Origin: Blastococcus aurantiacus
GTDB lineage: Bacteria > Actinomycetota > Actinomycetes > Mycobacteriales > Geodermatophilaceae
DNA: 64,000 bases
Direction: 5' to 3'
Assembly: GCF_900102425.1 (NCBI RefSeq)
Contig: NZ_FNBT01000008.1
Location: 1 to 64,000 of the forward strand
Position numbers and translations under genes: made by a program. The notes beneath the pieces were generated by a model. It saw only the letters and a program-made list of their open reading frames with translations, made no database searches and was not told where the DNA came from. Positions 45,318-48,514 of the stretch are shown here, in pieces (position 1 is the first letter of the stretch; each line of letters starts with the position of its first letter).

Positions 45318-47615
45318 TCAGAGCTTGACGAGGGGGGCGTAGCGCAGGACGAGGCGCTTGGTGCCCCCGGAGCCGAAGTCGACGGTGGCCTGCGCCTTGT
45401 CGCCCGCGCCCGTCACCTCGACCACCGTGCCGAGGCCGAAGGCGTCGTGGCTGACGCGGTCGCCGACGTCGACGGAGACGACCTGCCGGTTGCCCACGCC
45501 GCCGCGCAGGCCACCGGTGGACAGGCCGGTCGCCGCCACCCGCGTCTGCGCCGACCGGTAGCCCGTCGAGGGCGCCGGCGTCGGGTCGAGGCGCTCCCAG
45601 TGGATGGTCTCGGCCGGGATCTCGTCCAGGAACCGGGACGGCGGGTTGTAGGCCGGCTGGCCCCAGCTCGTGCGCACCGTGGCCCGCGAGATGAACAGCC
45701 GCTGCTGGGCGCGGGTGATGCCGACGTAGGCCAGCCGGCGCTCCTCCTCCAGCTCGCGCGGGTCGCCGAGCGCGCGCAGGTGCGGGAAGACGCCGTCCTC
45801 CAGGCCGGTCAGGAAGACCACCGGGAACTCCAGGCCCTTCGCCGTGTGCAGCGTCATCATCGTGACCACGCCGGCGTCGTCACCGGTGACCGGGATCTGG
45901 TCGGCGTCGGCCACCAGGGACACCTGCTCGAGGAAGTCGGTGACCGTGCCGTCGGGGTTGGCCGCCTCGAACTCGGCGGCGACCGAGATGAGCTCGTTGA
46001 GGTTGTCCACCCGCCCCTCGTCCTGCGGGTCGGTGCTGGCCTGCAGCTCGGCCAGGTAACCGGTGCGGTCGAGGATGCTCTCCAGCAGCGCGGCCGGGCC
46101 GGAGCCGGTCTCGACGAGCTGCTCGAACTCCTCGAGCAGGGCCACGAACTCCTGGATCGCCTTGAGCGAGCGGGTGGCCAGCTCCCCCACCTCGGAGCAG
46201 CGGCGCAGCGCGGAGGCGAACGCGATCCGCTCGCGGTCGGCGAAGTTCTCGATACAGGCCTCGGCCCGCTCGCCGATGCCTCGCTTGGGGGTGTTGATGA
46301 CCCGGCGCAGGCTCACGATGTCGGTCGGATTGGCGACGACCTTCAGGTAGGCCAGCGCGTCGCGGACCTCCTTGCGCTCGTAGAACCGGACCCCGCCGAC
46401 GACCTTGTAGGGCATGCCGACCCGGATGAAGACCTCTTCGAAGACACGTGAGGCGTTGTTGGTCCGGTAGAAGACCGCGATGTCCTTGGGCTGGGCGGCG
46501 CCCTCGTCCACCAGCGCGTCGATCTGCTCGGCGACCCAGGCCGCCTCGTCGTGCTCGTTGTCCGCGACGTAGCCCTCGATCAGCTCGCCGTCACCGGAGT
46601 CGGTCCAGAGGTTCTTGGGACGACGGCCGGTGTTCTTGGCGATGACCGTGTTCGCGGCCTTGAGGATGCGCTGGGTCGAGCGGTAGTTCTGCTCGAGCAG
46701 GATCGTGGTGGCCTGCGGGTAGTCGCGCTCGAACTCGTCGATGTTGCGGATCGTGGCCCCGCGGAAGGCGTAGATCGACTGGTCGGCGTCGCCCACGACG
46801 CACAGCTCGGCCATGGGCACCGGGCCCTCGCCGGTGCCCACCAGCTCGCGGACCAGCATGTACTGCGCGTGGTTGGTGTCCTGGTACTCGTCGACCAGCA
46901 CGTGGCGGAACCGGCGGCGGTAGTGCTCGGCGACGTCGGGGAACGCCTGCAGCAGGTGCACCGTGTTCATGATCAGGTCGTCGAAGTCCATGGCGTGCGC
47001 CTGGCGCAGCCGCTGCTGGTACAGCGTGTAGGCCTCGGCGAGCACCTTCTCCGGCGCCGTCCCCGGGACGTAGCTCTCCTCGTCGATCAGCTCGTTCTTC
47101 AGGTTCGACACCTGCGCGGCCAGGCTGCGCCCGGGGTAGCGCTTCGCGTCCAGGTCGAGGTCGCGGGCGACCATCGTCATGAGCCGGACCGAGTCGCCCT
47201 GGTCGTAGATGGTGAACGAGGACTTCAGCCCGAGCTTGCCCGCCTCGGCGCGCAGGATGCGCACGCACATCGAGTGGAACGTCGACACCCACATCGCCCG
47301 CGCGCGGGGGCCGACGAGCTGGGCCACCCGCTCCTTCATCTCGCCGGCGGCCTTGTTGGTGAAGGTGATCGCCAGGATCTCGCCGGGCTGGGTGTGCCGG
47401 GCGCCGAGCAGGTAGGCGATGCGGTGCGCCAGCACCCGGGTCTTGCCCGAGCCGGCACCGGCGACGATGAGCAGCGGCCCGCCCTCGTGGACGACGGCCT
47501 GCCGCTGCGGGCCGTTGAGGCCGGCGAGCATGCGGTCCAGTTCCCGCCCCAGGGACCCGGGCGCGGAGCGCTGGAGTGCGGCGGTGCCGGGGAGGGCCTG
47601 CTGGACGCTGCTCAT
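45318..47615 (-). CDS. pcrA: UvrD/PcrA-type ATP-dependent DNA helicase
   Basis: A 765-residue superfamily 1A helicase for repair and replication-fork maintenance. Motifs in order: GLNGPQRQAV (Q), VAGAGSGKTRVLAHRIA (I), TFTNKAAGEMKERV (Ia), VDEYQDTN (II), VGDADQSIYAFRGA (III), LEQNYRST (IV), VVTMMTLHTAKGLEFPVVF (V) and EERRLAYVGITRAQ (VI). The C-terminal extension ends in DAFGLGTVVEVTG, the Tudor-like segment that binds RNA polymerase in PcrA. ATG 47615 is preceded by a -10-like TACAGT but no Shine-Dalgarno. It diverges from the chorismate mutase leader. Confidence 0.95.
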   Translation of the reverse strand: MSSVQQALPGTAALQRSAPGSLGRELDRMLAGLNGPQRQAVVHEGGPLLIVAGAGSGKTRVLAHRIAYLLGARHTQPGEILAITFTNKAAGEMKERVAQLVGPRARAMWVSTFHSMCVRILRAEAGKLGLKSSFTIYDQGDSVRLMTMVARDLDLDAKRYPGRSLAAQVSNLKNELIDEESYVPGTAPEKVLAEAYTLYQQRLRQAHAMDFDDLIMNTVHLLQAFPDVAEHYRRRFRHVLVDEYQDTNHAQYMLVRELVGTGEGPVPMAELCVVGDADQSIYAFRGATIRNIDEFERDYPQATTILLEQNYRSTQRILKAANTVIAKNTGRRPKNLWTDSGDGELIEGYVADNEHDEAAWVAEQIDALVDEGAAQPKDIAVFYRTNNASRVFEEVFIRVGMPYKVVGGVRFYERKEVRDALAYLKVVANPTDIVSLRRVINTPKRGIGERAEACIENFADRERIAFASALRRCSEVGELATRSLKAIQEFVALLEEFEQLVETGSGPAALLESILDRTGYLAELQASTDPQDEGRVDNLNELISVAAEFEAANPDGTVTDFLEQVSLVADADQIPVTGDDAGVVTMMTLHTAKGLEFPVVFLTGLEDGVFPHLRALGDPRELEEERRLAYVGITRAQQRLFISRATVRTSWGQPAYNPPSRFLDEIPAETIHWERLDPTPAPSTGYRSAQTRVAATGLSTGGLRGGVGNRQVVSVDVGDRVSHDAFGLGTVVEVTGAGDKAQATVDFGSGGTKRLVLRYAPLVKL

Positions 47616-47716
47616 GACGACATCACTGTAAGCCGATCGGGGGACACTTCTCCGGCGCCGTCCACCCCGTCCTCCCCGCCTCGGGCGCGGTCCTGGCCCG
47701 CGCCCGGAGGGTGTGG

Positions 47717-47722
47717 CAGACT
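47717..47722 (+). promoter_or_regulatory. -10-like element before the aromatic leader peptide
   Basis: CAGACT ends 7 bases before the GTG of the leader peptide. The same CAGACT sits 6 bases before the GTG of the gene at 48514. The leader would then be translated from a leaderless mRNA. No good -35 is visible. Confidence 0.4.
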
Positions 47723-47729
47723 CCGTCCC

Positions 47730-47792
47730 GTGCTCGCCACTCACAGCTTTTACTACGGCCACCGGGATCCGGTCGCCGTCGCCGCTGGCTGA
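47730..47792 (+). CDS. Aromatic leader peptide (FYY) of the chorismate mutase attenuator
   Basis: A 20-residue open reading frame, VLATHSFYYGHRDPVAVAAG, ending in TGA at 47790. Phe-Tyr-Tyr in the middle is what a leader peptide would need to sense charged tRNA-Phe and tRNA-Tyr, the end products of the pathway that chorismate mutase opens. It stands 90 bases before the chorismate mutase ATG and 16 bases before a terminator hairpin. It is too short for normal gene calling. GTG as start has no Shine-Dalgarno but is 7 bases from a -10-like element. Chance is possible, but residues, position and hairpin agree. Confidence 0.7.
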   Translation: MLATHSFYYGHRDPVAVAAG

Positions 47793-47808
47793 GCACACGC
47801 CGCACCAG

Positions 47809-47846
47809 ACGCCCCGGGCCCGATGGCTCCGGGGCGTTCTTCGTTT
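47809..47846 (+). terminator. Attenuator terminator before chorismate mutase
   Basis: Arms ACGCCCCGG (47809-47817) and CCGGGGCGT (47829-47837) pair perfectly, and GCC/GGC extends the stem across one bulge to a CGAT loop. The stem is followed by TTCTTCGTTT, the best U-rich tract after any hairpin in this window. It sits between the leader peptide stop and the chorismate mutase gene, not after a gene, so it must act on the gene downstream. Confidence 0.75.
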
Positions 47847-47882
47847 CCGGGGCAGCACGGGCTCCCTCCCGGAAGGACACCC

Positions 47883-48161
47883 ATGAGCACCTCCGCCACG
47901 ACCGCCGTCACCGGAGCCGAGATCGACCGGATCAGCGCGCTCCGCGAGGAGATCGACGCCTGCGACGCCGCGATCATCGAGCTCGTGCAGCGCCGGCTGT
48001 CCGTCTCGCAGGAGATCGGCGCCGTCCGCAGGGCCAGCGGCGGCACCCGGCTGAACCTCGCACGCGAGCAGCAGGTGCTCGCGCGCTTCCAGGACGCGCT
48101 CGGCCCCGACGGCGCCGCACTCGGGATGATGCTGCTCCGTCAGGGCCGCGGGCGGCTCTGA
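47883..48161 (+). CDS. Chorismate mutase (AroQ type, small monofunctional)
   Basis: A 92-residue all-helical protein that converts chorismate to prephenate, the branch point to phenylalanine and tyrosine. It matches the AroQ helix 1 pattern: IDRISALREEIDACDAAIIELVQRRLSVSQEIGAVRRASGG, taken in parts as IDRISALREEID, the catalytic Arg/Lys region LVQRRLSVSQEIGAVR, and NLAREQQVLARF. Helix 3 is shorter than in E. coli, and actinobacterial short forms often need DAHP synthase as a partner for full activity. ATG 47883 follows GGAAGG by 7 bases. Control by the leader peptide and terminator upstream is likely. Confidence 0.88.
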   Translation: MSTSATTAVTGAEIDRISALREEIDACDAAIIELVQRRLSVSQEIGAVRRASGGTRLNLAREQQVLARFQDALGPDGAALGMMLLRQGRGRL

Positions 48162-48220: not shown

Positions 48221-48514
48221 CTAGAGCCAGGCGCGCCAGACGAGCGAGTCGTCGTCGCTGAGCGCCGCCGCCTCGAGCACGTCGCCCGGGCACCGCTCGC
48301 GCAGCTCCTCGCCGAGCGCGCGGGCCTGTTCCAGCGCGGACCCGAGGTCCTCGGCGTCGCACTCGGTGGAGGCCCGGAGCGCAGCACGGTCCGGCTCCCG
48401 CCAGACCCGCAGCTCCTCGTCCCCCGGGCGGAGCCCCGCTGCGACGGTGTCGACGGTGTCGTCGTCCACCTGTGCGGCGGCTCGCAGCACGGCGTAGATG
48501 GTGAAGGTGGGCAC
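48221..48514 (-). CDS. Small conserved hypothetical protein
   Basis: A 97-residue acidic, soluble protein starting VPTFTIYAVLRAAAQVDDD and containing two Cys (STECDAEDL and ERCPGDV) and many acidic residues. No signal peptide, helix-turn-helix or enzyme motif is seen. GTG 48514 lies 6 bases from CAGACT, which resembles a -10. Codon use and the absence of an overlapping alternative support it as a real gene. I do not recognise it; the ferredoxin-like strand-helix pattern is only a guess. Confidence 0.6.
   Translation of the reverse strand: MPTFTIYAVLRAAAQVDDDTVDTVAAGLRPGDEELRVWREPDRAALRASTECDAEDLGSALEQARALGEELRERCPGDVLEAAALSDDDSLVWRAWL

Follow-up and report, generated by a model that had tools for sequence, protein, structure and literature searches.

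A probable Phe- and Tyr-sensing attenuator upstream of a stand-alone chorismate mutase gene in Blastococcus aurantiacus and related actinobacteria

Chorismate mutase (CM) is the branch point to phenylalanine and tyrosine. Enterobacterial leaders of the pheL type are phenylalanine leaders with a Shine-Dalgarno start. In enterobacteria pheL-pheA and pheST are under leader control by charged tRNA-Phe, pheA encoding a chorismate mutase-prephenate dehydratase (PMC11802643), and in Corynebacterium glutamicum the AroR leader upstream of the DAHP synthase gene aroF is a Phe-Tyr-Phe attenuator (PMC11802643, citing Neshat 2014; mentioned in PMC7356990). Here and below, these two papers, PMC1262725, PMC8079986 and PMC13236596 are cited for those of their parts that were available to us. 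Leader-peptide control of trp, leu, ilv and cys genes is described for Actinobacteria in PMC1262725, the available part of which reports no conserved RNA structures upstream of phenylalanine/tyrosine operons. Eight leader peptides of Streptomyces lividans (leu, trp, ala, ilv, met, thr), none of them for Phe/Tyr, appear in the available part of PMC8079986, and the ilvB1 attenuator of Mycobacterium tuberculosis combines an amino-acid leader with a terminator and comes with a codon-change reporter (PMC13236596).

Our analysis of a 64,000-nucleotide stretch of Blastococcus aurantiacus DNA (the window) suggests that a stand-alone CM gene is very probably under the control of a transcription attenuator of the ribosome-mediated kind, with charged tRNA-Phe and tRNA-Tyr as its signals. 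We base this reading on anatomy, conservation, covariation and constrained folds, and infer from them the transcription start, stalling, termination and the response to amino acids. An earlier note had proposed a probable aromatic attenuator before the CM gene, an interpretation that the comparison between relatives strongly supports; its coordinates for leader, hairpin and palindrome all hold. Like AroR-aroF, the element would be an actinobacterial ribosome-mediated attenuator, the AroR leader carrying Phe-Tyr-Phe; however, AroR-aroF controls DAHP synthase and responds to Phe and not to Tyr (PMC11802643), whereas the downstream gene in the window encodes CM. The DAHP synthase position is shared by a layout in two other families (f60 and f62, discussed below) and not by the window element. 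Unlike pheL-pheA and pheST, the leader here carries both Phe and Tyr, is probably leaderless and has a start-stop helix. The trp, leu and ilv leaders of Streptomyces and Corynebacterium, in the descriptions available to us, are likewise leader peptides of the same class, several of them leaderless and some with terminators, but for other amino acids, and ilvB1 differs in serving branched-chain amino acids (PMC13236596).

At the gathering threshold the element belongs to none of the known Rfam leaders, T-boxes or riboswitches: 15 loci gave no gathering hits, and the three sub-threshold matches in an 8-kb stretch about the site do not overlap it. The mechanism is of the known trp/phe type; CM as its target and its breadth are apparently undescribed in the literature searched. 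Among the matches listed in our search, outside which most subscription papers fell, no title or abstract describes a CM attenuator, and the word chorismate is absent from the main texts of PMC4833913, PMC2965389, PMC4633059 and PMC11550727. Neither chorismate nor Rv0948c occurs in the available main text of PMC13236596, whose further candidate loci (Extended Data Fig. 5) may overlap the CM gene. In C. glutamicum CM is controlled through a complex with DAHP synthase (PMC11802643), and a CM attenuator conserved across many families of actinobacteria would be a further, transcriptional layer. It would also run against the published negative for Phe/Tyr operons, as given in the available part of PMC1262725, and would offer aromatic-product engineers a removable cis element.

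The CM gene (47883..48161, ATG at 47883, on the forward strand as are all features below unless stated) encodes a protein of 92 aa that scores 102.8 bits against NF005894 (cut-off 73), by which it is a high-GC-type chorismate mutase, and 78.6 bits against TIGR01808 (cut-off 52.15). A Shine-Dalgarno-like GGAAGGA (47871..47877) precedes it. The gene stands alone: the next ORF judged a gene (48221-48514) lies on the opposite strand, and the upstream neighbour, which encodes the DNA helicase PcrA (45318..47615, reverse strand; TIGR01073 993.9 bits, cut-off 911.2), is divergent. By the CM gene the nearest named relative is Blastococcus sp. TF02-09, the CM protein being 96% identical.

Between pcrA and CM lies a leader ORF of 20 codons that reads VLATHSFYYGHRDPVAVAAG from a GTG to its stop codon (47730..47792), exact to the base as the earlier note gave it, and conserved in relatives. 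This short ORF holds clustered codons for the end products, as in attenuators of the trp/phe type, namely TTT TAC TAC (Phe-Tyr-Tyr, 47748..47756), a cluster conserved in the family. A putative promoter, the extended -10-like motif TGTGGCAGACT (47712..47722, hexamer CAGACT at 47717-47722), lies 7 nt before the leader GTG. Of 136 distinct leaders, 109 have a YANANT motif that stops 6 or 7 nt short of the start codon, 3 have one at another spacing and 24 have none; these are raw counts without a shuffle baseline, and where several matches occurred the one nearest 7 nt was taken. At this fixed spacing the transcription start would fall on the leader start codon. The transcript probably opens with the leader GTG, and the suggestion that the leader peptide is leaderless is supported by the constant spacing.

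A hairpin, P2 (ACGGCCACCGGGATCCGGTCGCCGT, 47755..47779, -15.4 kcal/mol), begins inside the last Tyr codon, at its second base; the core of P2 is the palindrome ACCGG-GAT-CCGGT (47761-47773). The palindrome had been suspected of taking part in an alternative fold, and it does so in our folds: the loop and 3' arm of P2 pair with the 5' arm of the terminator. The left strand of this antiterminator, GGGATCCGG (47764..47772), is drawn from constrained prefix folds with the ribosome on Phe or the first Tyr (Tyr1), from covariation and from the family swap test, and its right strand, CCGGGCCC (47814..47821), within the terminator 5' arm and loop, from covariation and folds. P2 is in this sense a protector hairpin, holding the antiterminator strand when no ribosome is present. 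A further helix, P1, was absent from the earlier description and is supported by the MFE fold and the family swap test; it joins the start region (GTGCTCGCCA, 47730..47739) to the sequence around the stop codon (TGGCTGAGCAC, 47786..47796), and may perhaps block late ribosome loading.

The computed intrinsic terminator between leader and gene consists of the stable hairpin reported earlier, which is present as ACGCCCCGGGCCCGATGGCTCCGGGGCGT (47809..47837, -24.5 kcal/mol), and of an imperfect, broken T run, TCTTCGTTT (47838..47846). None of 200 shuffles folds as well as the region 47730-47846 (z -3.69), and the same holds for the terminator hairpin alone (z -3.97). A plain terminator scan found nothing and did not list the hairpin at 47809-47837, an omission that the interrupted T run presumably explains. 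Across leaders the terminator hairpin has a median of -25.8 kcal/mol, usually with T-rich sequence after it; the 9 bases 3' of the hairpin hold 4.3 T on average (136 leaders), the terminator finder used for leader counts still misplacing the hairpin of at least one locus, L060.

How could a ribosome on the leader select between these structures? We folded the prefix to 47829 with a ribosome footprint of assumed size masked. Without a ribosome P1 and P2 form. With the ribosomal A site on Phe the antiterminator forms at -26.9 and on Tyr1 at -24.5, on the second Tyr a shortened antiterminator remains (-20.6), and with the ribosome at the stop there is only a small local hairpin (-5.8). Thus in these computed folds a ribosome placed over the sensor codons releases an antiterminator that excludes the terminator, although full-length equilibrium folds favour the terminator at all four ribosome positions tried. 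Since the terminator wins there in every state, the choice between terminator and antiterminator must be kinetic, falling while the RNA is still being synthesised, as it does in the classical trp attenuator. Moreover, when the ribosome stands at the stop, the left strand of the antiterminator is directly behind it, so that P2 must re-form after release.

We propose that the transcript would start at the leader GTG and that a ribosome would follow RNA polymerase closely, translating the 20 codons of the leader. When Phe or Tyr is short, this ribosome would stall on TTT-TAC-TAC with the left arm of P2 beneath it; the rest of P2, its loop and right arm (47764-47772), could then pair with the left arm of the terminator (47814-47821), the terminator would not form in time, and polymerase would read through into the CM gene. 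When Phe and Tyr are both plentiful, the ribosome would reach the stop and leave, or would never load, P2 would re-form together with P1, and the terminator would end transcription near 47846.

Under strict criteria, set after leaders had been inspected, 129 of the 151 distinct upstream regions of CM contain leader and terminator, as does none of 906 dinucleotide shuffles, and it is mainly this conservation that excludes a chance origin of leader and hairpin. The criteria are an ORF of 12-32 codons, an F/Y pair followed by G, a stem-loop of -17 kcal/mol or better lying 5-31 nt after the leader stop, and at least 3 T in the 9 nt after the stem-loop. The count excludes duplicates, regions shorter than 200 nt, L101, which is a record from Clostridia, and the truncated L096. 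Six loci came without a location (L155, L158, L159, L179, L183 and L187, the last of which does show a leader); the leader ORF was picked by hand in L124, L125, L126, L128, L153, L162 and L172, and the terminator in L123 and L154.

The CM gene occurs in 109 of 112 genomes of the family (Geodermatophilaceae), in 382 of 397 of the order and in 48 of 148 of the class. The family upstreams examined comprise 30 loci, a further 72 (one Clostridia, one cut short) and 9 handled by script, seven of the most diverged genomes with CM (52-58% identity) being left out; those beyond the family comprise 20 from better-scoring matches, 26 located of 29, and 30. Within the family 78 of 79 distinct regions pass, so that the F/Y codons and the hairpin are conserved in close relatives, as the earlier note had asked one to check. 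The element is nevertheless not peculiar to Geodermatophilaceae, since 17 further family labels within its class each have one or more passing regions. With the labels f2-f62 kept anonymous, the passes are 7/8 in f16, 5/5 in f15, 10/10 in f33, 3/3 in f13, 5/5 in f2, 2/2 in each of f5 and f12, 2/3 in each of f3 and f4, 1/2 in f11, 6/18 in f8, 1/1 in each of f36, f46, f50, f14, f9 and f7, 0/3 in f32, and 0/1 in each of f10 and f6. We take the families with the element to include Streptomyces-, Micromonospora- and Mycobacterium-like ones. Among the misses, looser aromatic leaders are visible by eye in L119, L134, L156, L157, L172 and L190, and f32, with 0/3 by the strict test, yet shows an FYG leader by eye in two of its three regions.

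In f8 the 12 of 18 regions without the element look like real losses. In three upstream regions of this family (L141, L143, L171) a -10-like motif and a short ORF keep the same spacing, but no F/Y cluster is left, and the short ORF is followed by another hairpin, which has GGTCTG...GGTGAA-like sequence; here the attenuator has perhaps been replaced by another regulator. Upstream of CM in L169 there is a terminator-like hairpin with a short leader frame that lacks Phe/Tyr codons. The present element is absent from the CM upstreams of two small genomes (L176, L177), which we take for Corynebacterium. A record titled Bacillus sp. AZ43 (UNVERIFIED_ORG, L047) carries a Geodermatophilaceae-type CM and leader, and its organism name looks wrong. 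The pattern TTTTACTACGGNCACCG, used as a class-wide search, was too strict and found the window only (1/148).

The hairpins also carry compensatory changes, which the earlier note had named as a thing to look for: P2, terminator, antiterminator and P1 all covary between families. In most families P2 measures 25 nt (26 nt in f33) and opens at base 2 of the final aromatic codon. In an alignment of 41 distinct 25-mers, restricted to the 25-nt forms and including 13 of 17 distinct family forms, 91.6% of cells are paired as compared with 29-45% in slid registers, a percentage inflated because the 25-mers were placed in their best-pairing register. This alignment has 24 double-change cells against 8.7 after shuffling (reached by 0/500 shuffles); how many pairs show such a change is not unusual alone, 36/500 shuffles reaching the same count. 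A second alignment holds 33 of 37 selected leaders from many families (L060, L118, L153 and L168 left out), and P2 and terminator together show 42 double-change cells in it against 16.5 (0/500); the terminator helix is 95.3% paired, with 3 of 9 pairs changed on both sides. For the antiterminator, whose register was derived on this same second alignment, there are 22 double-change cells against 11.8 shuffled (0/500) and 80.1% pairing against 22-68% slid, and percentage, cells and score drop in every slid register. Pairs with a double change are again less telling, 160/500 shuffles reaching their number and a slide of -1 giving 5 such pairs against 4.

On average, a family's P2 fits its own terminator better than the terminators of other families. 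In P2-terminator duplexes from 21 families the cognate pairs average -18.98 kcal/mol and the swapped pairs -17.06, so that swapping terminators between families costs about 1.9 kcal/mol on average, and 2 of 20000 permutations do as well. The exceptions are f6, f10, f36 and f50 (4/21), which do worse on their own terminator than other families' leaders do, and f11, which ties; the family of the window takes ranks 8 and 9 among the 21. For P1 the corresponding values are -14.46 and -11.63 kcal/mol (0/20000), the cognate helix being weaker than the swaps in 5/21 families. Both tests use at most 4 members per family and permute families as if these were independent of each other, although they are not entirely so, and some start choices are doubtful, e.g. 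in L138. Clear compensatory swaps between families are GGACTCCGG with CCGGAGTCC (f15), GGGCCGCGG with CCGCGGTCC (f8), GGAGTCCGG with CCGGGCTCC (f16) and TTGTCCGGG with CCCGGGCAA (L117).

Could the hairpin act on translation instead? In a translational-level leader, stalling would expose or hide the CM ribosome-binding site or couple translation, and the hairpin would be no true terminator. The broken T run and the candidate mycobacterial cysteine leaders without obvious terminators (PMC1262725, in its available part) fit such a scheme, but we consider it unlikely, as the conserved alternative pairing targets the left arm of the hairpin and not the CM Shine-Dalgarno sequence, 33 nt beyond the hairpin, and the hairpin has the strength and the T-rich sequel described above. 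It is very improbable that the conserved peptide is itself active, be it as a small product or as a nascent-chain arrest peptide: beyond the cluster, residues vary freely between families (GTGSPAAVGRA, GTRTPAPVIA, GYRSAVPVGI, GNRPTGCHGRAA) while the P2 pairing is kept, and P2, P1 and the antiterminator can account for the conservation of these residues within the family (GHRDPVSVTAG), which would suit an active peptide.

Finally, a plain terminator of some other transcript, next to a chance ORF and without regulation, is hardly credible. Similar hairpins do occur elsewhere in the genome (L192, L193, L195 and L196, which resemble ordinary terminators), but pcrA is divergent, so that no known gene ends at the hairpin, and both the 129/151 regions against 0/906 shuffles and the covariation speak against this explanation.

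In a wider search, a covariance model of the CM leaders was run on 296 genomes of the phylum. The CM element scored 42-91 bits in 14 genomes, and there were weaker matches at 30-39 bits. Of these weaker matches, the ones retrieved come mostly from families f60 and f62, which lie outside the class. Each of the 12 loci retrieved from f60 and f62 (L212-L217, L219, L220, L222-L225) has an aromatic leader followed closely downstream by an ATG-GTN-GTN-GT start. The downstream gene was available in full for three (L213, L215, L219), and the two that were profile-tested, L215 and L219, encode DAHP synthases (TIGR01361 357.5 and 388.8 bits, cut-off 267.75). In L216, the one locus folded, there is a P2-like hairpin, a terminator, and an antiterminator in the prefix. 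Trp stands inside the aromatic run in 7/12 of these DAHP synthase leaders, e.g. MSRSFGFWFFYGGRRPA, and anywhere in 9/12, as compared with 1/136 CM leaders with Trp inside the run (Fisher p 1e-8 for 7/11, before the twelfth locus, L220, whose run has no Trp, and with kinship ignored). Since DAHP synthase feeds Trp, Phe and Tyr, and CM only Phe and Tyr, the split in Trp codons fits end-product sensing, and the Trp-containing version is a natural test of leader codons versus pathway logic.

More generally, there may be a phylum-wide aromatic attenuator module, an idea for and against which we see the balance as even: one ancient RNA framework (leader ORF, P2 from the last aromatic codon, P2-terminator antiterminator) whose sensor codons would have been retuned per gene, to Phe/Tyr for CM in one class and mostly to Trp/Phe/Tyr for DAHP synthase in another group, with losses marking handed-over control. 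Four low phylum matches, L218, L221, L226 and L227, show no convincing aromatic leader. In the window's own genome the model gives 10 matches at E up to 1, headed by the window element at 90.9 bits with the next at 27.9. Loci exist for seven of the nine lesser matches (L192-L198), and no other F/Y leader is present on either strand of these seven. As copies we rejected L192, L193, L195 and L196, which look like ordinary terminators, and L194 and L198, which are the opposite strand of the same window element; L197 is unexplained.

The sensor codons themselves vary to some extent. In nearly all family upstreams examined the leader follows VLxxxxF[YFSAP]YG[HYL]R[DVS]PV[SA]VxAG with small variations, a pattern found in Blastococcus, Geodermatophilus, Modestobacter, Klenkia (whose leaders end in VPQR), Trujillonella and Goekera. 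Of the expected F/Y cluster the first Phe and the last Tyr are kept, while at the middle position Phe is frequent, with Ser, Ala or Pro there in a few relatives' leaders; family loci skipped by the automatic F/Y filter have TTT-TCC-TAC, TTT-GCC-TAC or TTT-CCC-TAC. The first sensor codon, at 47748-47750 in the window and in the family leaders, is nearly always TTT, and the Tyr codons are the common TAC. Among 77 family leaders 77 of 92 Phe codons are TTT and 15 TTC, and in other families the leaders contain 69 TTT and 55 TTC. By comparison, TTT accounts for 0 of 36 Phe codons in two long genes of the window taken together (pcrA, 25 TTC; ORF 50216, 11 TTC). The preference for TTT at the first sensor codon could possibly reflect a tuning of stalling, or else avoidance of pairing.
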